Source of the DNA: Sphaerochaeta halotolerans
Lineage (GTDB): Bacteria > Spirochaetota > Spirochaetia > Sphaerochaetales > Sphaerochaetaceae
DNA: 64,000 nucleotides
Assembly: GCF_003429665.1 (NCBI RefSeq)
Contig: NZ_QUWK01000005.1
Location: 62,001 to 126,000, forward strand
Direction of reading: 5' to 3'
Below are positions 4,430 to 23,374 of the stretch, one piece after another. A program made the translations under genes and the position numbers. Position 1 is the stretch's first letter. Every line of letters starts with the position of its first letter. The notes below the pieces were generated by a model. That model did no database searches, was not told where the DNA came from, and saw only the letters and a program-made list of their open reading frames with translations.

Positions 4430-4474
4430 CACCCTTTGCCCTGCCTCCTATACAATACACAGGGCAAAAGAAAA

Positions 4475-4632
4475 ATGAAAGGTATCAATACCCCAGGGCA
4501 AGCCATGGACTCAGAAGGCGTTGCCTCCTTTTCCGCCCCAAGGGACGGGGTATCTCACCTTGCTTTCCCGGCACTCGCTCGGGAGAGGAAGCATCATGCT
4601 GATTCCTTTCCTCTCGCTCCGTTGGGGAATGA
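4475..4632 (+). repeat. Dispersed repeat, copy 1 (about 157 bp)
   Basis: Begins ATGAAAGGTATCAATACCCC and ends at GTTGGGGAATGAA. It matches copy 3 (45480-45636, reverse strand) along its whole length with scattered differences, and copy 2 (14236-14350) over the first 100 bases. It is rich in short inverted repeats, such as AGGC GTT GCCT. It also holds a reading frame that stays open in all three copies: MKGINTPGQAMDSEGVASFS, continuing with APRDGVSHLAFPA. The copy lies between the flavodoxin relic and the flavoprotein gene. No target duplication or transposase was found. Confidence 0.85.
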
Positions 4633-12171: not shown

Positions 12172-13446
12172 TTAAGAGAGCAAACGGATTCGTCCTTGTT
12201 CCTGAAAAGAGGCAAGGTCTATTTCCTTGCCACCAGAGAGACGGCTTTCTTCAGCTGCCAGAGCCATGAAATGGCTTTCCAGCGATGATGAAAGGTCACT
12301 GGTACTGCGTATATCCATGGAGCGAACACGGCTGATAAAATCAGCAATTAAGTGTTCGTCCCCTCCCCCATGACCATCCTTTTTTGTATGAAGTTGGTAG
12401 GTCACTCGTTCTTTCGTCGCAAAAAAGTCCACGGTAATCTCACCTGTCTCCATATCGCCTTTCAGCTCCGCCTTGCTGCCCAACACACGAATATTCCTAT
12501 GAGTTTCCATGGTAAAGCCTGACATGGTAAAGCTTGCGATGACACCATTGGAGAACCGGGCACTTACTGTCTGATGATCAACCACATTGTTGTCACAGTG
12601 ATATACGCACCTTCCGTAGGGGCCTTCTTTCAACGCCCGCTCTCTCCCCTCAAAGGAGAGGTCAGTAGTGATGACGTTCACCGGCCAACCCGTGTTTTCT
12701 CCCAGATAAATCTTCTGGGCTGCATAGGGACACTGATCAAAGGCAGGACAACCATCAGTACAGCGTAATGGAGCATTCTTTGGAGCGTTCTCTTGTTTGA
12801 AATGAAACAGATCACCATAGCTGGAAAGCGTCTCACAGGTGCTTCCTGCAAGATAATGCAGAATATCCATGTCATGGCAACTCTTGGCAAGAATCATAGG
12901 ACTGGAGGTTTCCTTCTTGCTCCAGTTTCCCCGAACGTAGCTGTGGGAAATATGGATATGACCTACATTCTCATCAAGCTCGAGACCAACCAGATCTCCG
13001 ATGGTTCTATCATCGATGAGTTGCTTAATCCTGGTGAAGAATGGGGTATGGCGCAAAACGTGTGAAATGCTCACCAGACTCTTTGTGTGCTTGGCACGCT
13101 CTGCAATTTGGGACAATTCGTCCAATGATGGTACTACTGGCTTCTCGCAGAGCACTGGATAACCTCCATTAATTGCAGCGAGAAGCGGCTGCAGATGCAT
13201 CGAATCCTGGGTTGCAATGATGACGACATCAAAATCCTGATGAGAGGAGGGAAACAACTCCTTCCAATCTGAGACTACGAGCGAAGAGAGTATGCCATGT
13301 CCTTCAGCAATCAGAGAACGCTTACGTGTATCAGGTTCTGCGATGGCAGTTATACGAAGCTCTTGCGGATGGTTTTTTGCGTAGTCAGCATACACATACC
13401 GACCCCTGCTCCCTCCGCCCAATAATGCGGCGCGAATTGGGTTCAT
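12172..13446 (-). CDS. Gfo/Idh/MocA-family oxidoreductase with cysteine cluster
   Basis: 424 residues. The N-terminal Rossmann domain has the nucleotide loop GGGSRG at about 10-15 and the family EKP motif at 101-103 (LCEKPVVPS). The C-terminal domain contains the catalytic-type His191 in AKSCHDMDILHYLAG. An insert holds five cysteines, at 229, 233, 239, 280 and 284 (CTDGCPAFDQCPYA and GRCVYHCD), a pattern that suggests a bound metal and is seen in one Gfo/Idh subgroup. It probably oxidises a sugar or inositol derivative with NAD(P). The ATG at 13446 follows CGGAGAA. Confidence 0.85.
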   Translation of the reverse strand: MNPIRAALLGGGSRGRYVYADYAKNHPQELRITAIAEPDTRKRSLIAEGHGILSSLVVSDWKELFPSSHQDFDVVIIATQDSMHLQPLLAAINGGYPVLCEKPVVPSLDELSQIAERAKHTKSLVSISHVLRHTPFFTRIKQLIDDRTIGDLVGLELDENVGHIHISHSYVRGNWSKKETSSPMILAKSCHDMDILHYLAGSTCETLSSYGDLFHFKQENAPKNAPLRCTDGCPAFDQCPYAAQKIYLGENTGWPVNVITTDLSFEGRERALKEGPYGRCVYHCDNNVVDHQTVSARFSNGVIASFTMSGFTMETHRNIRVLGSKAELKGDMETGEITVDFFATKERVTYQLHTKKDGHGGGDEHLIADFISRVRSMDIRSTSDLSSSLESHFMALAAEESRLSGGKEIDLASFQEQGRIRLLS

Positions 13447-14500: not shown

Positions 14501-15586
14501 TTACCCTACCTGGGGAGGTACCAATACCAATTTCCCTATATGTTGCTTGCGGGAAAAGGCTCTCTGTGCTTCCACGATATGTTCCAAAGGATGTACCCCT
14601 GCAAGCAGAGGTCGGATTTCCCCATGTTCGATATATGATATAAGATTACTGAAAACAGGCTCATCCCAAGCAGTGCACCCTATGAGCTTCAAGTCCTTGA
14701 GATAGAGTCTGCGCAAATCAATGGAAACCTGAGCTCCTGCGATAGCCCCGGAGGTTACCAAACGTCCGCCCCTCTTAAGAAGGTTCAGCATTTCACCAAA
14801 TGCAGGACCGGCCACTGTATCAACTACAACATCTACCGATGTATCGGGTAGAACTCCAGAGACAACCTCTTCACGTGTCAGCACCCTGTCTGCACCAAGG
14901 GCGGCCACATCTTTCTGTTTAGCACAACTGGTAACTGCAATTACCTTTGCACCTCGGCGCTTGGCCAACTGAACCACAGCAGAGCCAACACCACCAGAAG
15001 CCCCTCGTACCAACACCACATCGTTCCCAGATACTGATGATCGATGCAACATATTCTCGGCGGTACCATAGGAACAAGGAATAGTGCCCAACTCCACATC
15101 ACTCCAATTACAATCAATGGGGAACACTTCCCCAGAAGAAACACATACATACTCTGCAAATGCACCATTACAATCTGAACCCAGCCACGCAGTCTCTAGA
15201 GAACCCCACCCAGAAGTTCTCATGCAGGGACGTACCAACACACGCCTTGCAAGCAAAACCTCATCTTCAGGGGAACCAACAGAAACCACCAATCCACAAC
15301 AATCTGTACCTTGGATGAGTGGGAAAGAAGTCTTTTTGTTCCATCCACCTTCGGTTATAGCCTTACTATCATTGGTGGAAACTGCATGGGTACCTTTCGT
15401 AACCGAAGCATCATACCATCCCAAACGGGTATTGATATCGGTTGCATTTATTCCTGCAGACAGCACTTTCAACAACACAGTACCAGGAAGCACCTCTGGA
15501 ACCGGGACATCTTGATACTGCAAATGCTCATAGCCTCCCATTCCAGTGGTAACTACTGCTTTCATTATCGGGGGTATCATACGCAT
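14501..15586 (-). CDS. MDR-superfamily alcohol dehydrogenase/quinone-oxidoreductase-like protein
   Basis: 361 residues. It has the N-terminal GroES-like catalytic domain (VLLKVLSAGINATDINTRLG) and a Rossmann domain with VLVRGASGGVGSAVVQLAKR. The usual ADH zinc-site GHE motif is absent; ASGGVG and the ATDIN motif are those of zinc-less quinone-oxidoreductase relatives, although several cysteines occur. It probably reduces or oxidises a carbonyl/alcohol with NAD(P)H. The start at 15586 was chosen for AGGAGAAAGG upstream; the frame extends to 15763 but that part overlaps the regulator. It follows the RpiR gene by 49 bases and is probably co-transcribed with it, so it may belong to the divergent catabolic operon. 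Confidence 0.82.
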   Translation of the reverse strand: MRMIPPIMKAVVTTGMGGYEHLQYQDVPVPEVLPGTVLLKVLSAGINATDINTRLGWYDASVTKGTHAVSTNDSKAITEGGWNKKTSFPLIQGTDCCGLVVSVGSPEDEVLLARRVLVRPCMRTSGWGSLETAWLGSDCNGAFAEYVCVSSGEVFPIDCNWSDVELGTIPCSYGTAENMLHRSSVSGNDVVLVRGASGGVGSAVVQLAKRRGAKVIAVTSCAKQKDVAALGADRVLTREEVVSGVLPDTSVDVVVDTVAGPAFGEMLNLLKRGGRLVTSGAIAGAQVSIDLRRLYLKDLKLIGCTAWDEPVFSNLISYIEHGEIRPLLAGVHPLEHIVEAQRAFSRKQHIGKLVLVPPQVG

Positions 15587-15635: not shown

Positions 15636-16367
15636 TCATGGCTTCTTACTAAGAAAGCGCTGGATGACTTCTTCCAGAAATATGAAGAACGTAGTTCGTG
15701 ACTTCTCATATGCCTGTAAGTGGTTTGGTTGCGGTTGTGGGGCCAGATAGAAAATCTTGTCACATTGGGTGGCCAGCTCAGTGTTGAACTCTTCTGAAAC
15801 GATAATCACATCACATTGCTTTTTCTTTGCTGAAGCATAGATATCCTGGAAGGAGTGAAAACGGCCGGTTTCTGTGAGTATGACCAAGAGAGTCACCTCG
15901 TCAACCATGTTCTTTGCAGCCACAGGGTCTGAGACGGCCATGGTTGTGATATCTGTGCAATTCCTGAACCGATACGAAAAATACTCAGCACAAAGCAGTG
16001 ACGGGCCATATCCGAAGAGAACCAGCTTCTTGTGGTTCACGATCAAGGCATAGAGGTCATCCACCAAGCGGGAATCAAAGGCATCAAGAAATGCTCGTAT
16101 ACGTTGGATTTCATTTGTTGCTGTATATCCAATTACATCCTTCCCATTCAAAAATGCTCTGTACTGTTTATAATTAAGAAACCCAAGCTTTCTCACAAAC
16201 TTCGAAATCTTTGATACTGAGCAATTGCATACCTCAGCAGCCTGGGTAATGCGCAAGGTACCAGAAGTATCTTTTTGGGCAAGCAGAACCTCATGGATAT
16301 GTCGCTCCAGGGGATTTAATGTACGTAAATCAATGGTATTCAAAACAGTATGTCCTTCCTTATTCAT
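15636..16367 (-). CDS. MurR/RpiR-family transcriptional regulator
   Basis: About 243 residues. The N-terminal HTH_6 domain includes ITQAAEVCNCSVSKISKFVR (the recognition helix). The C-terminal SIS sugar-phosphate domain starts near LVLFGYGPSLLCAEYFSYRF and continues through VTLLVILTETGRFHSFQDIY. Such regulators sense a phosphosugar and control nearby sugar genes. An ATG at 16367 gives a normal HTH start; a TTG at 16430 would add 21 residues of no known domain, and neither has a strong ribosome binding site. It is divergent from the FAD-oxidase/ETF/kinase operon, and two similar inverted repeats lie between them. Confidence 0.83.
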   Translation of the reverse strand: MNKEGHTVLNTIDLRTLNPLERHIHEVLLAQKDTSGTLRITQAAEVCNCSVSKISKFVRKLGFLNYKQYRAFLNGKDVIGYTATNEIQRIRAFLDAFDSRLVDDLYALIVNHKKLVLFGYGPSLLCAEYFSYRFRNCTDITTMAVSDPVAAKNMVDEVTLLVILTETGRFHSFQDIYASAKKKQCDVIIVSEEFNTELATQCDKIFYLAPQPQPNHLQAYEKSRTTFFIFLEEVIQRFLSKKP

Positions 16368-16439
16368 GCAACTGATGACAGTGTAATCACTGACAACGGA
16401 AGTATACAGGTAAAATCGCTTGGTACGCAATCATAAAAT

Positions 16440-16491
16440 GGAAAATTTTCCTATTTTAATTATATTACTCTATTTTTTTAGAAATTTTTCC
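16440..16491. promoter_or_regulatory. Candidate RpiR operator pair
   Basis: A perfect 12-bp palindrome GGAAAATTTTCC (16440-16451) and a near copy AGAAATTTTTCC (16480-16491, two mismatches) lie between the RpiR gene and the divergent operon. The second box ends 7 bases before a consensus -35. Spacing and symmetry suit a dimeric regulator, but the AT-rich setting can produce such sites by chance. Confidence 0.5.
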
Positions 16492-16498
16492 ATATTTA

Positions 16499-16527
16499 TT
16501 GACATTACAAACATGGCCCCTTACCAT
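16499..16527 (+). promoter_or_regulatory. Sigma-70 promoter of the ETF/FAD-oxidase operon
   Basis: A consensus -35 TTGACA (16499-16504), a 17-bp spacer and TACCAT (16522-16527) lie about 58 bases before the GTG start at 16585. The candidate repressor box sits immediately upstream. Confidence 0.6.
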
Positions 16528-16584
16528 AAGGACAAATGGGTAAAATACCTATTTGGACTTGTCACCCAGACTTTGGAGGAATCC

Positions 16585-18054
16585 GTGAACAACGAAATGA
16601 TTATTGAACAACTGAAAACAGTGCTGAAACCAACGCAGATCAACACCAACAGTGAAGATCTCTATGATGCATCAGCAGATAGATACAAGAAATATGCTAA
16701 AGCACGAAAGGTACTTGATGTCCCTTCTCCGTTAGCAATCGTCTACCCGGATTCCCCTGAGCAAGTACGGGATTTGCTTGTGTTCTGCAACACCAACCAG
16801 GTCAACGTAATCCCACGTGCGGGGAAAACAGCTACCGAGGGTGGGCTTGAAAACTGGAAGGAACAGACGCTCGTCATAGATGCACTGCATCTGGACAGGA
16901 TCATCAACATTGATACCTACAACATGCAAGCAACCGTACAGGCCGGTGTTCCCTTACAGGAGCTGGAAGATGCCTTGAGAAAAGATGGATTTACCACTGG
17001 GCATTCACCTCAGTCAAAACCGGTTGCAAAACTTGGGGGACTGGTCGCAACACGGAGCATCGGGCAGTTTTCCACCCTCTACGGGGCAATAGAAGATATG
17101 GTTGTCGGACTGGAGTGCGTTTTTCCAGATGGACATATTTCTAGAATCAAGAATGTACCAAGACGTTCAGGGGGACCGGATATCCGACACATCGTCATCG
17201 GTAATGAAGGCACGCTGTGCTACATCACCGAAGTAACGGTCAAGATATTCAAGATCTATCCTGAAAACAATACGTTCTATGGATACCTTATCAAGGACAT
17301 CGATACAGGAATCAAGATCCTGCGAGAGGTCATGGTAAACGGTTTTCGTCCCTCAGTTGCCCGTACCTACAGTGAAGAGGATGCTGCACAGCATTTCTAT
17401 CACTTCCACAAGAACAAGTGTGTACTGCTGTTCATGGCAGAAGGTCCTGAGGGTATCGTGAAAGCCACAGGTGAGGCAATCGAGCAGGCGGTTGAGAAAT
17501 TCAAGGACGGTATCATCGAACAGGTTGACAGCAAGCATATAGAAAACTGGTTCAACAACCTCAATTGGTCCCAGCAAGACATTGACGATGAATTTGAGGG
17601 AATGAAAGAGCACGACAGCCACTCAGGCTTCACCACCGAAATTTCTGCCGATTGGAGCACGATCACAGAAATTTACCACAATGTCATCAAGCGCATAAAA
17701 GAGGACTATCCCCGTTACCATGACTTGACCCTGCTCGGAGGCCACTCCTCTCATAGTTATATCAATGGGACCAACATGTACTTCGTGTACAACTATGACA
17801 TCCACTGTGCTCCTGAGGATGAAATGAGGGTGTACCACCACCCATTACAACGGATCATCGTGGAGGAAACCCTCAAACTTGGGGGGTCAATGTGCCACCA
17901 CCATGGAATTGGAAAGTTCCGTAATGAATGGACCAAGATGGAACATGGCTCCGCATACTACATGCTGGAGAAACTGAAAGAAGCGTTTGATCCGAACGGC
18001 ATCATGAACTTTGGTACCATCTTCCCCCAGGAAGAAGGTAAGAAGTACCAATAA
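16585..18054 (+). CDS. FAD-linked oxidase, AGPS/YgcU-like
   Basis: 489-residue flavoprotein of the VAO/FAD_binding_4 type. The FAD domain shows PRAGKTATEGGLENW, ATVQAGVPLQELEDALRKDG, then TTGHSPQSKPVAKLGGLVAT and GNEGTLCYITEVTVKI. The C-terminal cap ends with GGSMCHHHGIGKFRNEW, the triple-His signature of alkyldihydroxyacetonephosphate synthases. Inside an operon with ETF subunits it more likely acts as a dehydrogenase that hands electrons to ETF, as E. coli YgcU is predicted to do. The start is a GTG at 16585 with GGAGGA six bases upstream; the frame reaches back to 16420, but that part is promoter. First gene of a six-gene operon. Confidence 0.85.
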   Translation: MNNEMIIEQLKTVLKPTQINTNSEDLYDASADRYKKYAKARKVLDVPSPLAIVYPDSPEQVRDLLVFCNTNQVNVIPRAGKTATEGGLENWKEQTLVIDALHLDRIINIDTYNMQATVQAGVPLQELEDALRKDGFTTGHSPQSKPVAKLGGLVATRSIGQFSTLYGAIEDMVVGLECVFPDGHISRIKNVPRRSGGPDIRHIVIGNEGTLCYITEVTVKIFKIYPENNTFYGYLIKDIDTGIKILREVMVNGFRPSVARTYSEEDAAQHFYHFHKNKCVLLFMAEGPEGIVKATGEAIEQAVEKFKDGIIEQVDSKHIENWFNNLNWSQQDIDDEFEGMKEHDSHSGFTTEISADWSTITEIYHNVIKRIKEDYPRYHDLTLLGGHSSHSYINGTNMYFVYNYDIHCAPEDEMRVYHHPLQRIIVEETLKLGGSMCHHHGIGKFRNEWTKMEHGSAYYMLEKLKEAFDPNGIMNFGTIFPQEEGKKYQ

Positions 18055-18066
18055 AGTGGTGTCCCT

Positions 18067-18861
18067 ATGAACATCATTTGCTTAGTAAAATTCGTTCCAG
18101 ATATAACTGGGTTCACCTATGATTATCATGCAAGTGCCATGGTACGAGAACACACCAGGATGGTGTTGAATCCAGATGATGAGTGTGCACTCTCCTTCGC
18201 TTTCAAGCTGAAGGAGCAGCATCCTGAGTCCTTGATCCATGTAGTCTCCATGGCTCCATCCTCTGTAGTACCACACATGCATGACCTTCTCAGGCTTCCT
18301 GTGGACAGGGGAACGCTCATCTCTGACCCTCTTTTTGCAGGGAGCGACACCTATGCAACCAGTGAGGTGCTGGGCACCTATCTCAAGAGCCAAGAGTTTG
18401 ATGTAATTCTCAGTGGAAGCCGATCGCTTGATGGAGCAACATCCCAAATCCCCGGGCAGATTGCCCAGATGCTCGGTTTTGATCACATGTTGGATATCAC
18501 CGATATTGATGTTGGGAGGACTTCTCGCACAGATGCAGTGTTCTCCATTGAGGGTGAGAAGGAAACAACCACCTGGTCCATGCAACTTCCTGGAGTACTG
18601 AGTCTTGCTAGGAGCAGCACCTGTAAACTTCCCTATCCGTCTTATGCAGATCTGCAGAAAGACGTCTCAGACAAGCTTACTATTCTCACCAACAAAGAAC
18701 TTGGAATAGATTCCACACATATCGGCTTGGAGGGTTCCCTGACCAAGGTGGTACATACCTACGAAGCGAATAGTCGCATACGGGAAAAGACGGTGGTGGA
18801 GGCAGATGATGAGGGAATTGAATTTGTGTTCTCCTATCTAAAGGAAAGGGGGTTTGTGTAG
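18067..18861 (+). CDS. etfB: Electron transfer flavoprotein beta subunit
   Basis: 264-residue ETF beta subunit (adenine-nucleotide alpha-hydrolase fold). It opens MNIICLVKFVPDITGF as in EtfB/FixA proteins and has the conserved LSGSRSLDGATSQIPGQIAQ segment, the family's DG-x-x-x-Q nucleotide contact. Together with EtfA it carries electrons from the FAD oxidase upstream. It is 12 bases downstream of that gene and one base upstream of etfA. Whether it belongs to a bifurcating type cannot be judged by eye. It resembles the YgcR set by context. Confidence 0.87.
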   Translation: MNIICLVKFVPDITGFTYDYHASAMVREHTRMVLNPDDECALSFAFKLKEQHPESLIHVVSMAPSSVVPHMHDLLRLPVDRGTLISDPLFAGSDTYATSEVLGTYLKSQEFDVILSGSRSLDGATSQIPGQIAQMLGFDHMLDITDIDVGRTSRTDAVFSIEGEKETTTWSMQLPGVLSLARSSTCKLPYPSYADLQKDVSDKLTILTNKELGIDSTHIGLEGSLTKVVHTYEANSRIREKTVVEADDEGIEFVFSYLKERGFV

Positions 18862-18862
18862 C

Positions 18863-19843
18863 ATGAAGCGTACCCTGATTCTTGGAGACACTGGACTCCC
18901 CAAGCGTAGCAATGATCTCCTTGAGGTGAGCAATAGAATCTATGATGGGAAGAAGCATGAATCTTGGCTGCTTGCCTTCTCTCCTGACCAAGAGAACTTG
19001 CCAGAAGGCTTTGAGAGGATCATCCTAGTCCAGGATGAGGGGAATATCTGTGAAGATGCACGATATATCTGTGCAATCATTATGGATCTCCACTCGACCT
19101 ATGCGTTTGATGCCATCCTTATCCCTGGTACATGGATCGGACGAATGGTTGCACCACGACTGGCAAAGCGGTTACAGGTTGGATTGGTCGCTGAAATAAA
19201 TGATGTGAAGACACGTGATGACGCCTTGGAGTTTGTACGCACAGCCTACTCTGGGAATATTCTCTCCGGTATTGCAATAACAAGTAGCCCTCCCATTATC
19301 CTGAGCATCAAACCTGGAATATTTACCTGGGAACAAAAATCAGGAGTGAACACCATAATCCAGAACTATACCAAGAAACTACAATCTCCATCGTCCCTAA
19401 CCTGTCTGAAAAGAAAGCAACGTTCTGTTTCCTATGATATTCGTGACAGCAAAGTGCTTGTTTCCGGAGGTGGTGGTGCAAAGAGAGCATATCCACTCCT
19501 GGAAACACTGGCAAAAGCCTTGGGGGGCGAAGTTTCTGTAAGCCGGAAACTTGTTGACCAAGGGATTGCCAACCGTACCATCCAGGTAGGACAATCAGGG
19601 AAGATAGTCAACCCGAGACTGTATATTGCCATCGGTATTGATGGGGCAATCCAACATGTGGAAGGATTACGTAATGTAGAGACGATACTTTCAGTGAACA
19701 CCCACTCAGACGCGCCGATCTGCAGCATATCGGATGTTGTAGTTGTTGGTGATGCAAAGATTTTTATAGAAAAGCTGTTACAACGGATTGCCTTAGAAAA
19801 TGAGGGAACAATTCACGATCAATACAGAGGAGAGAGAAAATGA
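18863..19843 (+). CDS. etfA: Electron transfer flavoprotein alpha subunit
   Basis: 326 residues. The C-terminal FAD-binding domain is clear: VLVSGGGGAKRAYPLLETLA, GGEVSVSRKLVDQGIANRTI, QVGQSGKIVNPRLYIAIGID, GAIQHVEGLRNVETILSVNT, then DAPICSISDVVVVGDA. The usual GISGA is GIDGA here, a small change near the flavin. The N-terminal nucleotide-like domain is more divergent. The ATG at 18863 lies one base after the etfB stop. The last codons overlap the next gene (ATGA), so translation is coupled. No ferredoxin-like extension is present. Confidence 0.87.
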   Translation: MKRTLILGDTGLPKRSNDLLEVSNRIYDGKKHESWLLAFSPDQENLPEGFERIILVQDEGNICEDARYICAIIMDLHSTYAFDAILIPGTWIGRMVAPRLAKRLQVGLVAEINDVKTRDDALEFVRTAYSGNILSGIAITSSPPIILSIKPGIFTWEQKSGVNTIIQNYTKKLQSPSSLTCLKRKQRSVSYDIRDSKVLVSGGGGAKRAYPLLETLAKALGGEVSVSRKLVDQGIANRTIQVGQSGKIVNPRLYIAIGIDGAIQHVEGLRNVETILSVNTHSDAPICSISDVVVVGDAKIFIEKLLQRIALENEGTIHDQYRGERK

Positions 19844-20619
19844 ATATACCTGACTTCACCATGGACTTCTTTTCCTTGAAAGGGAAAAACGCCATTGTTA
19901 CCGGCGGGAACAGCGGTTTGGGGCAACCGTTCTCCGTAGCATTGGCAAAGGCTGGAGCAAATGTCATGGTAGCGAGCATCTTGGAAGATGATGGTCAGAC
20001 AAGAGAGTGGGTTGAAGATTGTGGAGTTGAGTATCACTATATCCACAGCAACATCACCGAAGAGGGTGAATGCAAACGTGTCGTAGATGCGTGCCTCGAT
20101 ACTTGGGGAAGCGTTGACATCCTGGTCAACTGTGCAGGTATCAGCATAAACAAAGAGAATGTTACTGAATTCAATCGAAGTGATTGGGACAAGATGATTG
20201 CAGTGAACCTGACCGCTGCCTTTGAGATGATACACGAAGCCAGCCCCCACATGCTCAAACAGAGAAGTGGGAAAATCATCAACATTGCATCGCTGTACGC
20301 TTTTCTCGGCGGGCGATGGTCACCAGCATATGCTGCATCAAAACATGGTATTGTTGGATTGACGAAGGCGATGAGTGATGAGCTTGCAGAATTCAATATC
20401 CAGGTCAATGCCATTGCCCCTGGGTACTTTGCAACCAAGTTGACAGAGAAAACCCGCAGCGACCAGAAACGGAATGAGGGAATTGTATCTCATATTCCTG
20501 CAAATCGTTGGGGTACAGCAACCGACTTGATGGGTTCTTGCGTGTATCTGTCCAGCGATGCTTCCAACTATGTGAACGGAACTGTATTGACTATTGATGG
20601 AGGATTCCTGATACGCTAA
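19840..20619 (+). CDS. SDR-family dehydrogenase, KduD/YgcW-like
   Basis: 259-residue classical SDR. It opens FFSLKGKNAIVTGGNSGLGQ, with the cofactor loop TGGNSGLG, then NCAG, NIASLYAFLGGRWSPAYAAS with the catalytic Ser, Tyr and Lys (YAASKHG), and the ending NGTVLTIDGGF. It is near 2-deoxy-D-gluconate 3-dehydrogenase (KduD) in style. It overlaps etfA by four bases and has GGAGAG upstream. In this operon it would supply or remove a hydride at one carbon of the sugar or polyol that the FAD oxidase works on. Confidence 0.86.
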   Translation: MNIPDFTMDFFSLKGKNAIVTGGNSGLGQPFSVALAKAGANVMVASILEDDGQTREWVEDCGVEYHYIHSNITEEGECKRVVDACLDTWGSVDILVNCAGISINKENVTEFNRSDWDKMIAVNLTAAFEMIHEASPHMLKQRSGKIINIASLYAFLGGRWSPAYAASKHGIVGLTKAMSDELAEFNIQVNAIAPGYFATKLTEKTRSDQKRNEGIVSHIPANRWGTATDLMGSCVYLSSDASNYVNGTVLTIDGGFLIR

Positions 20620-20651
20620 ATCATAGGAATCATAGAGATAAAGAAGTAACC

Positions 20652-22088
20652 ATGAAACAGAAGTATATTGTAGCAATCGATGGTGGTACACAGAGTACCA
20701 AAGTGGCACTATTTGACACCCTCGGCCGAGAGATTTGCTCAGATACTGTGCCGCTCAAGGAAATCCATCTGTATGGAGACTCAAGGGCTGAACACCCTGA
20801 TGATGATCTGTGGGACACTTTGCAACAGGCTTGCAAAGGAATGCTTAGTTCGTTTCAAGGCAACATAGAGGATATTATCGGCATCGGCTTGGGCTCCATC
20901 CGTTGCTGTCGTGCCCTCCTCAAGGAAGATGGAAATTTGGCTTCCCCGGTGCAAAGCTGGATGGATATCCGTCTCTCCTATCCCTATGAACATGAGGATG
21001 CTGAGGTGAGGTATGTTACCACCGCTACAGGGTATCTGACCCATCGACTGACAGGAGAGACCAAGGATACTCGATCAAACTATGTGGGTCCCTGGCCTAT
21101 CGACCCGGAGACATTACAGTGGTACCCGGATGGTGAACTCTTCGATTCCTATACCACACCACGGTCCATGCTCTTTGAGTTGGTAGACCCAGCTACCGTC
21201 CTGGGCTATGTGACAGAACAAGCGAGTAAAGCTACCGGGCTTCCTGCAGGAATCCCCGTTGTTTCTACTGCAAATGATAAAGCCGTAGAAGGCCTAGGTG
21301 CAGGTTTGACTGATTCTGGAACCGTCTTGGTGTCACTAGGCACATACATCACAAGCATGATGGTAGGAGATACATACCAAGAAAATGCAGAGTTCTATTG
21401 GAGTAATCCTGGGGCTGTACCGGGTGAATTTCTCTATGAGAGCAATGGGATTCGTAGGGGGATGGCTACCGTTACCTGGATCAAGGACCTCATGGGTTCT
21501 GGCTTGGAAGAACAAGCAAAAGGCCACAATCTTTCGCCGGAAGCATATTTGAATGTACTGGGAAAAGATGTTCCTGCTGGATGTGATGGACTATACACTA
21601 TCTTGCACTGGCTTGCCCGTCCCACCCATCAATGGGAGCGAGGCATCATGATTGGGTTCAACGGTTCACACAAGGGACCGCATATGTTTCGCTCCGTACT
21701 TGAAGGCATCGCAATGACCATGAAGAATAACGCGAAGGCGATGTGCGATGAGATGGGCAAGAAAATAGATCATCTCATTGTAAGTGGTGGTGGGTCCAAT
21801 GGAGATCTTTTCATGCAGATCTTTGCCGATGTATTTGGAGTGCCTGCTCATCGGAACGAGGTAAATGAGTCGGCCAGTATGGGAGCTGCAATCTGTACTG
21901 CCCTTGCCTTGGGAGTGTATCCTGATAGGTCTTCAGCTATCGAACATATGGTGAGAATTCGAGATAATTTCAAACCTAATGAGGCAAACGTGCTACTGTA
22001 TGAGAGAATCAATCAAGAGGTGTACACCAAAATCAATGCCGCAACCGAGGAAGTATTACAAGCCTCTCATCGTATTTTTCATGATTGA
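20652..22088 (+). CDS. FGGY-family carbohydrate kinase (YgcE/xylulokinase-like)
   Basis: 478-residue sugar kinase. The N-terminal ATPase loop YIVAIDGGTQSTKVALFDTL, the mid part TGLPAGIPVVSTANDKAVEG with GTVLVSLGTY, and the C-terminal adenosine loop LIVSGGGSNGDLFMQIFADV are all present, so the two-domain fold is complete. Xylulokinase and glycerol kinase are relatives; the substrate cannot be read off. It is 32 bases behind the SDR in the same operon and would commit the oxidised or reduced sugar to central metabolism as a phosphate, the likely ligand for the RpiR regulator. Confidence 0.86.
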   Translation: MKQKYIVAIDGGTQSTKVALFDTLGREICSDTVPLKEIHLYGDSRAEHPDDDLWDTLQQACKGMLSSFQGNIEDIIGIGLGSIRCCRALLKEDGNLASPVQSWMDIRLSYPYEHEDAEVRYVTTATGYLTHRLTGETKDTRSNYVGPWPIDPETLQWYPDGELFDSYTTPRSMLFELVDPATVLGYVTEQASKATGLPAGIPVVSTANDKAVEGLGAGLTDSGTVLVSLGTYITSMMVGDTYQENAEFYWSNPGAVPGEFLYESNGIRRGMATVTWIKDLMGSGLEEQAKGHNLSPEAYLNVLGKDVPAGCDGLYTILHWLARPTHQWERGIMIGFNGSHKGPHMFRSVLEGIAMTMKNNAKAMCDEMGKKIDHLIVSGGGSNGDLFMQIFADVFGVPAHRNEVNESASMGAAICTALALGVYPDRSSAIEHMVRIRDNFKPNEANVLLYERINQEVYTKINAATEEVLQASHRIFHD

Positions 22089-22129
22089 CCTTTAATCCTC
22101 CTTCATTATTTTGATACCCAAAGCCGAGG

Positions 22130-22150
22130 TACGTTGCTATATTCAACGTA
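22130..22150. promoter_or_regulatory. Inverted repeat before the MFS gene
   Basis: TACGTTG and CAACGTA around seven bases, ending just at the AAGGAGGAGG ribosome binding site of the gene at 22166. As RNA it would form a small hairpin near the ribosome binding site. As DNA it could be an operator. Confidence 0.35.
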
Positions 22151-22165
22151 AGGAGGAGGTTTTTG

Positions 22166-23374
22166 ATGCGCATCACCAACTATCGTTCTTTCATGATCCA
22201 TGCCCTGTTCCTCTCGCTGACCATGAGCTTCATAGACGTAAATACCGTTGCTCCTGCCATGCTCACCGAGAGTGGAGCTACCACGTTCCACCTCGGGTTG
22301 CTTACCGCAATCATGGTGGGATTTGCCAGCTTCATGCAGTTATTGTTTGCGACTTTCATCATGGGATTCAAGCATAAGAAACCGGCTCTCTTGGTGGGTA
22401 TCTACTTCAGGGTTGCAGCGCTTGCAAGCCTGGGAATATTCTTGCACAACCTTGGAGAGCCTGCTACCTGGAAGATTTGGCTTATCCTCTTCTTGATAAC
22501 CGTGTTCTCCTTCAGCGGTGCATGGGCAAACATCGCATACACTGATATCCTTGGGAGCACCATTGAAAAACCTCTGAGAAAGAAGCTGCTTACCCAGAAA
22601 CAACTGATCAGCAGTATTGGCTTGATTATCAGTTCAGTTGTCGTAAAGATTGTTCTATCCTACCTCTCCTACCCAGACAGCTACAGCCTTCTGTTCCTTA
22701 TGGCAAGCCTGTTGCTACTCTTTGCAACCAGTGGCTTCTGGATGCTTAAGGAGGGAGAACCTCCAGAGAGGAAGCGCCAAAGTCTTGCTGATAAACTTGG
22801 CATGTTTGCCGAAGCCATCAAGGGGGACCGTAATGTTATGCTCTACCTTGTGCTGGTAAATACCTCTGGCGTTATTCTTTCTACCCTGCCCTTTTTAGTG
22901 GTACTGGCAAATCAACACTATGGAATGGACGGGGGGAGAACAGGAACCTTCCTGCTGTTCCAGCTTTCAGGATCCTTGATTGCAACCATCTTGGCGAACC
23001 TGTTCAGCAAGGGGCAACGCTATCGTCCCCTGCTCTATTTCTTCATCTTCCTCGGTGCATTCACCCCGCTCGTAGCCCTGTTGCTGATAGCAATCCCTTC
23101 CCTCTATCCGCTCGCATTCCTGCTTGGAGGAGCCACCAGCGCACTCTATCACATCCTTACGGTAGGAATTCTTCTAGAGATTTCCACAGATGAGAACCGA
23201 CCAATCTATACTGGAATTGGTGGTGCTGGTGCTTTGATGAATATTCTCTATCCTATGCTTGCAGGTCTCTTACTCCCCTACCTAGGCTTTCCTCTGGTCT
23301 TCATTCTTACCAGTTGTTATATGCTTCTGGGGCTCTATGCAGCAAAACATTTGGATTGTGGTATAGTTGCTTGA
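22166..23374 (+). CDS. Major facilitator superfamily transporter
   Basis: 402 residues with about 12 membrane segments, beginning NYRSFMIHALFLSLTMSFID. The charged central loop LKEGEPPERKRQSLADKLG separates the halves. ATG at 22166 with a very strong AAGGAGGAGG; a TTG one codon upstream is not needed. It lies 77 bases after the kinase in the same direction and probably imports the substrate of the ETF-linked pathway, as MFS genes do in the E. coli ygc cluster. An inverted repeat in the gap could give it separate control. Confidence 0.82.
   Translation: MRITNYRSFMIHALFLSLTMSFIDVNTVAPAMLTESGATTFHLGLLTAIMVGFASFMQLLFATFIMGFKHKKPALLVGIYFRVAALASLGIFLHNLGEPATWKIWLILFLITVFSFSGAWANIAYTDILGSTIEKPLRKKLLTQKQLISSIGLIISSVVVKIVLSYLSYPDSYSLLFLMASLLLLFATSGFWMLKEGEPPERKRQSLADKLGMFAEAIKGDRNVMLYLVLVNTSGVILSTLPFLVVLANQHYGMDGGRTGTFLLFQLSGSLIATILANLFSKGQRYRPLLYFFIFLGAFTPLVALLLIAIPSLYPLAFLLGGATSALYHILTVGILLEISTDENRPIYTGIGGAGALMNILYPMLAGLLLPYLGFPLVFILTSCYMLLGLYAAKHLDCGIVA

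Follow-up and report, generated by a model that had tools for sequence, protein, structure and literature searches.

The DNA analyzed here, referred to as the window, is a stretch of 64,000 nucleotides from Sphaerochaeta halotolerans (contig NZ_QUWK01000005.1, positions 62,001 to 126,000), a spirochaete with a 2.93-Mb genome whose nearest public relatives are Sphaerochaeta metagenome-assembled genomes, and the subject of this work is a gene cluster within it that resembles the ygc system of E. coli. Six codirected genes on the plus strand, separated by short gaps or overlapping, form an operon. It begins with OX, a flavin adenine dinucleotide (FAD) enzyme of AGPS/YgcU type with FAD_binding_4 and FAD-oxidase_C domains (16585..18054), and proceeds through the two subunits of an electron-transferring flavoprotein (ETF), EtfB (18067..18861; Pfam domain ETF) and EtfA (from TTG at 18854 or ATG at 18863 to 19843; ETF and ETF_alpha only), to SDR, a YgcW/KduD-like short-chain dehydrogenase/reductase (19840..20619; NCBIfam PRK06935 with 326.8 bits, below the cut-off of 369), KIN, a YgcE-like FGGY-family kinase (20652..22088; FGGY_N and FGGY_C), and MFS, a transporter of the major facilitator superfamily (from TTG at 22163 or ATG at 22166 to 23374; MFS_1). 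A divergent regulator of the RpiR family with HTH_6 and SIS domains occupies the minus strand (15636..16367, start near 16367) and is followed by a gene for a medium-chain dehydrogenase/reductase (MDR). All eight are intact open reading frames, and Pfam and NCBIfam agree with the families and arrangement proposed for the operon and its regulator in an initial annotation made from the letters alone. The two gene pairs described there as joined are so indeed: EtfB and EtfA overlap or leave a 1-nt gap, depending on the EtfA start, while EtfA and SDR overlap by 4 nt. As for OX, translation probably starts from GTG at 16585 with GGAGG 5 nt upstream, the listed TTG start at 16420 being in all likelihood too long.

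Over their full length OX, SDR, and KIN are 58, 59, and 50% identical to YgcU, YgcW, and YgcE of E. coli K-12, and by this measure they are orthologous to them. The ETF subunits belong to a group different from YgcQR and share only 20% (EtfB with YgcR) and 29% (EtfA with YgcQ) of residues, which argues that the electron carrier has been swapped relatively to the E. coli system, and sequence comparison of MFS with YgcS and YqcE gave zero matches, its counterparts (88-89% identical) being confined to same-genus loci. Thus the equation of the locus with the E. coli set, made previously, holds for the three enzymes and fails for the transporter, the ETF likeness being weak. In the same genus the same gene set is found in the same order, with OX 94% identical, and rearranged versions are present in other phyla, so that chance neighborhood may be dismissed. 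The genome-neighborhood search suggested earlier revealed the core in Spirochaetes, Desulfobacterota, Bacillota, on a Fusobacteriota plasmid, on a Vibrio plasmid, in Streptomyces, and in E. coli; in two Bacillota classes it was rare, with 6 genomes out of 391 sampled in one and 6 out of 399 in the other, whereas the ygc region occurs in 5351 of the 5426 complete E. coli genomes, 5013 of them with at least 80% cover. While the core stays the same from locus to locus, the electron carrier changes: most anaerobic loci have one ETF type, E. coli has YgcQR with YgcNO, and Clostridia combine YgcQR with a second GlcD-like oxidase, mostly having its own ETF. Clostridial loci of this kind (L021, L024, L066, L067, and L110; L and G numbers denote loci and genomes of the comparison) encode the second GlcD-like FAD oxidase mostly together with LctBC-type ETF. 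In L012, L014, and L110 a gene for a SurE-family phosphatase follows or adjoins the kinase. In the open-access literature searched, neither function nor substrate was found for ygcU, ygcW, ygcE, ygcQ, or ygcR.

Indications of what the system handles come from genes that repeatedly accompany the core elsewhere, and these are not genes for sugars. Transporters of the betaine/choline/carnitine family (BCCT, Pfam PF02028) or OpuABC systems for osmoprotectants occur within approximately 10 kb at about 20 of 37 loci, while genome densities predict a frequency of near 2% per 20-kb stretch; for 19 of 36 loci the binomial p is about 1e-23, which is not a strict p value since the loci share ancestry. 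The involvement of two unrelated transporter types, together with gene orders that vary between loci, speaks for an association that arose more than once. A tree built from 37 BCCTs places every locus-linked member in a single clade with 100/100 support, to which the remaining BCCTs of those genomes do not belong. Two clade members first labeled “other” also proved to lie at such loci, the clade thus being confined to them; one of the two is from G070, which belongs to the same family f1 as the window and whose contig begins with the kinase. Six genomes (G124, G128, G428, G267, G244, and G133) have every BCCT at such a locus. Aromatic-box residues, presumably located as in BetP, whose positions we took as reference, are kept in transmembrane helix 4 (W....Y..Y) of most BCCTs at the linked loci and in helix 8 (W..W) of several. 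At these BCCT/Opu-linked loci the substrate therefore probably bears a quaternary ammonium group. OX of the window is 82-83% identical to its counterparts at the BCCT-linked loci L011 and L063, while SDR and KIN are 74 and 72% identical to those of L063, and this closeness makes the same substrate plausible for the window. Two spirochaete loci (L074:12676-15986 and L075:13618-16914) have a peptide-type, GsiB/DppA-like ATP-binding cassette transporter by the regulator in place of BCCT or Opu. A small gene beside Opu and aldehyde dehydrogenase genes, considered as GbsR-like, was rejected after its assignment to DUF5698/DUF2179 by Pfam.

The second indication is a downstream module. In three Bacilli (G619, G876, and Priestia) genes for a zinc alcohol dehydrogenase (ADH), an aldehyde dehydrogenase (ALDH), and a lyase of the aspartase superfamily are found next to the core, and the Vibrio locus has ALDH and the lyase. 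The best family for ALDH is betaine-aldehyde dehydrogenase, with the score below cut-off, and the lyase scores below aspartase cut-offs. A lyase sharing 57% identity with that of Priestia is encoded on a Peribacillus plasmid, where it forms one continuous reading frame with a BCCT of the locus clade (L082:11998-14556), probably as a deletion fusion. In all five lyases the catalytic loop GSSxxPxKVN is preserved, and Ser/Ala and Cys stand in place of Asn and His/Gln, the residues by which aspartase contacts the amine (AspB N142 and H188; PMC11744663), as expected for an enzyme that would act on N-substituted aspartate. The module fits a chain leading from homoserine betaine via aspartate-semialdehyde betaine to aspartate betaine and then to fumarate and trimethylamine, because it would convert alcohol to aldehyde and acid, followed by elimination, on a succinate frame with substituted amine. 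Homoserine betaine is an osmolyte of Trichodesmium, and the 2026 study that measured it left microbial uptake aside (PMC13403184). A stereocenter at the alpha-carbon would be in line with two racemase-like genes, one for an MR_MLE enzyme (G876) and one for a member of the proline-racemase family (L021). The known glycerol ether of homoserine betaine is the betaine lipid diacylglyceryl-N,N,N-trimethylhomoserine (DGTS).

The third indication is OX itself. Its best solved relative is AGPS (E-value 6e-46, compared with 2e-17 for LctD), and OX residues R257, Y395, and H434-436 correspond to Arg352/419, Tyr508/578, and the HHH loop of AGPS, being conserved across 43 aligned orthologues; the importance of Arg352 and Tyr508 (Dictyostelium numbering) was shown by mutagenesis (PMC3509576). 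By analogy, a reaction of AGPS type would take place at the very bond that must be cleaved in a glyceryl ether. AGPS acts on the carbon between a ketone and the ether or ester oxygen.

The intergenic region between RpiR and OX contains two palindromes of the type TGGAAAATTTTCCA at a distance of 40 bp, TGGAAAATTTTCCT (16438..16453) and TAGAAATTTTTCCA (16478..16493), which are the only two matches of at least 12/14 within the 64-kb window. Such a pair is present in 15 of 20 RpiR-OX intergenic regions (mean for shuffled sequences 0.01), a single palindrome in 19 of 20 RpiR-type loci (1.4 in shuffles), and an orthologue of the regulator in most loci of this type. Coupling of RpiR to the locus, as assumed in the initial annotation, is thus supported by conserved paired operator-like sites; the role of repressor assigned to it is not, as the sites are located upstream of a promoter-like match, and a sigma-70 promoter scan found 13 matches against 13.4 expected, with no excess over chance. 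E. coli-type loci have YgcP (PF04309) instead, a member of the glycerol-3-phosphate (G3P)-responsive antiterminator family, and since the two regulators substitute for each other between loci, it is suggested that a phosphorylated product is sensed.

Quaternary-ammonium transporters, the G3P antiterminator, the betaine-aldehyde-type dehydrogenase, and the modified aspartase together point to a glycerol-linked betaine. We therefore propose, with a confidence just short of even, that the locus represents a version of the ygc system serving to break down the glycerol ether of a quaternary-ammonium alcohol, the likeliest one being glyceryl-N,N,N-trimethylhomoserine, which is the headgroup left when DGTS is deacylated. 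The gene set, orthology, operator pair, transporter clade, linkage of ADH, ALDH, and lyase, loss of lyase residues, and the absence of ETF:quinone oxidoreductase described below are read from sequence; the reactions, their order, and the identity of the compound we infer as follows. The compound would be imported via BCCT, OpuABC, or MFS, and OX with SDR would act at C1/C2 of the glyceryl side, oxidizing and opening it, with OX applying AGPS-like chemistry to the ether-adjacent carbon and passing electrons to ETF. KIN would phosphorylate the glycerol-type fragment for triose-phosphate metabolism, RpiR (YgcP at other loci) sensing the product, and homoserine betaine would be released. Where ADH, ALDH, and lyase are present, it would be converted via aspartate betaine to fumarate and trimethylamine; in the window organism the headgroup is probably exported or otherwise used because no close match to the module lyase was found in its genome. 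That the substrate is glyceryl-trimethylhomoserine itself we hold somewhat below an even chance, and its use by the window organism is a more tentative suggestion. Glycerophosphocholine was set aside since no phosphodiesterase was seen among the neighbors, carnitine for the lack of an aspartase-type step and of a polyol for the kinase, and the headgroups of diacylglyceryl hydroxymethyltrimethyl-β-alanine (DGTA) and diacylglyceryl carboxyhydroxymethylcholine (DGCC) for their poorer fit to the aspartase step. Glucosylglycerol, to our knowledge not a substrate of BCCTs, was set aside for this reason.

Several observations weigh against this proposal. Confidence is lowered because the window locus itself, like those of its same-genus relatives, has no BCCT or Opu gene; neither do the E. 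coli, Ilyobacter, and Streptomyces loci, and genome G000 has no BCCT and a single Opu system located elsewhere. The second catalytic Arg of AGPS (Arg447/Arg515) falls outside the aligned OX-AGPS stretches. The chemistry of alkyl-dihydroxyacetone-phosphate (alkyl-DHAP) synthase does not require an electron acceptor, and ether cleavage alone therefore leaves ETF unexplained. The second GlcD-like oxidase of Clostridia is not covered by the model, and the lyase module, found at few aerobic loci only, may have been added to deal with homoserine betaine in free form.

In the initial annotation the substrate was taken to be an ordinary sugar or polyol. In its developed form this explanation implies import of a rare compound by MFS, oxidation by OX-ETF, reduction at another carbon by SDR (net epimerization), and phosphorylation by KIN. 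FGGY kinases as a class suit this explanation, as do the affinity of SDR to KduD and gluconate 5-dehydrogenase, transport by MFS only at the E. coli and Sphaerochaeta loci, and the fact that RpiR regulators often bind sugar phosphates; KIN carries family-conserved IRxCR and DKxVE motifs and not the Arg-Glu pair of GlpK. Against it stand the recurrence at the loci of Opu systems and of a BCCT clade dedicated to them, the G3P-responsive antiterminator, the ADH/ALDH/modified aspartase module, and the AGPS-like active site of OX, and we consider the sugar explanation unlikely.

The fate of electrons raises a further alternative, namely that OX-EtfAB is a flavin-based electron-confurcating complex in which reduced ferredoxin drives oxidation with NAD+, as in Ldh-EtfAB of Acetobacterium woodii. 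The nearest solved relatives of both window subunits are bifurcating ETFs, and the ETF:quinone-oxidoreductase domain (PF21162), through which electrons might otherwise be accepted, is absent in 27 of 29 locus-bearing genomes tested, that of the window included (E. coli was positive as control, YgcN carrying the domain; PF05187 was dropped from this test for its negative E. coli control). However, bifurcating EtfBs are characterized by DGDTAQVGP, RxFxG, and SPT motifs (PMC9232219), at the place of which the window EtfB has DGATSQIPG, PLFAG, and SLT; it has lost D124 and GP of the first, Arg of the second, and Pro of the third, so that the motifs for bifurcating FAD (b-FAD) and NAD are eroded. 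Most orthologues read DG[DG]T[AS]HVP, sharing Q-to-H and GP-to-Px changes, and Pfam search of EtfA found no ferredoxin domain of the kind present in Ldh-type complexes. Bifurcation, which had been offered beside energy saving as an option, stays unproven for the window ETF but keeps some likelihood, because the genome has no ETF:quinone oxidoreductase that would receive the electrons; confurcation has in our opinion only a small chance of being correct. A separate LctBCD-like set (GlcD-type dehydrogenase, EtfA, and EtfB) is encoded in the same genome beside a TetR-type gene (L004:2235-5465, contig C4), and its EtfB has all three motifs intact.

According to another alternative, OX is a non-redox ether lyase or synthase of alkyl-DHAP type working through an N5-flavin adduct, SDR makes a ketone, KIN a phosphate, and ETF serves some other enzyme. 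This would agree with the preserved catalytic Arg, Tyr, and HHH of AGPS and with the lack of local ETF at the aerobic loci of Oceanobacillus, Pontibacillus, Priestia, Vibrio, and Streptomyces. In anaerobes, though, ETF is nearly always within the operon, and aerobes whose whole genomes were searched encode it elsewhere. Moreover, in Mediterraneibacter and Marispirochaeta the EtfA of the locus is the only one of the genome, the cluster having no other flavin dehydrogenase; ETF thus appears dedicated to the pathway in at least two genomes, as expected from the partnership with the FAD enzyme suggested earlier, and this favors net oxidation by OX over non-redox cleavage, making the alternative rather improbable. 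Least probable of all, and very much so, is that Opu and BCCT genes are osmotic-stress neighbors with no functional link to the core: some hosts are halophiles rich in BCCTs (G120 and G122), but linked BCCTs form a clade of their own, six genomes keep every BCCT at such loci, and a Pontibacillus genome with 14 BCCT matches has none near its two core loci.

The MDR gene (14501..15580, minus strand) encodes a PIG3-like dehydrogenase (NCBIfam PIG3, 144.6 bits, cut-off 296.8) whose membership in the system is doubtful; it is present as annotated and is linked to the locus only in Sphaerochaeta relatives (L008 and L009). Together with a gene for Gfo/Idh/MocA-type dehydrogenase (12172-13446), which within the genus stays near the locus with 85-87% identity and not beyond it, MDR was rejected as a core member, their linkage being confined to the genus. 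A repeat unit of roughly 127 bp, located in the window at 4474-4600, is scattered through the genome in at least 41 copies that share 93-98% identity.

No published pathway for catabolism of betaine lipids or homoserine betaine was found in the open-access literature searched, and betaine lipids are abundant in phosphate-starved algae and fungi. The long-open question of the ygc substrate gains a concrete testable compound, and the proposal, if true, explains how betaine lipids may be catabolized, adds a new origin of trimethylamine, and gives the ether-lipid synthase a counterpart in catabolism. In its broadest form, to which we give less than even credence, nearly every E. coli would share a widespread pathway in which an ETF-dependent AGPS-like flavoenzyme cleaves the headgroup ether of betaine lipids, ending in some species with a new trimethylamine-releasing aspartate-betaine lyase.

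Among known systems, the E. coli ygc locus (ygcNOPQRSUW-yqcE-ygcE) is the closest one, with orthologous OX, SDR, and KIN and with an ETF pair and MFS genes nearby; the window locus differs in having neither YgcN/YgcO (ETF:quinone-oxidoreductase-like and Fe-S proteins) nor YgcP, RpiR being found instead, and in its unrelated MFS. Ldh-EtfAB of A. woodii (LctBCD) similarly unites a FAD_binding_4 dehydrogenase, EtfB, and EtfA in one operon, while OX is of AGPS and not LctD type, the bifurcation motifs are eroded, and EtfA is devoid of the ferredoxin domain. Alkyl-DHAP synthase (AGPS/ADPS) of ether-lipid biosynthesis, the closest solved relative with the same catalytic Arg, Tyr, and HHH, is longer than OX, which works beside ETF and is proposed to break the ether rather than make it. 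Choline oxidation systems gbsAB/bet share with the linked loci a betaine-aldehyde-dehydrogenase-like ALDH, an iron-dependent ADH (in L023, best matching GbsB), and Opu/BCCT transporters, whereas scores at the linked loci are below family cut-offs and an aspartase-like lyase and the ygc core are added. Finally, the GliR regulon PA3026-PA3024 of P. aeruginosa combines an AGPS-like FAD oxidoreductase, an FGGY kinase, and a GlpD homologue with a proposed link to glycerolipids, and as described it includes no ETF, SDR, or quaternary-ammonium transporter (PMC8151288); by analogy, the same logic of ether cleavage could operate there on alkylglycerols.

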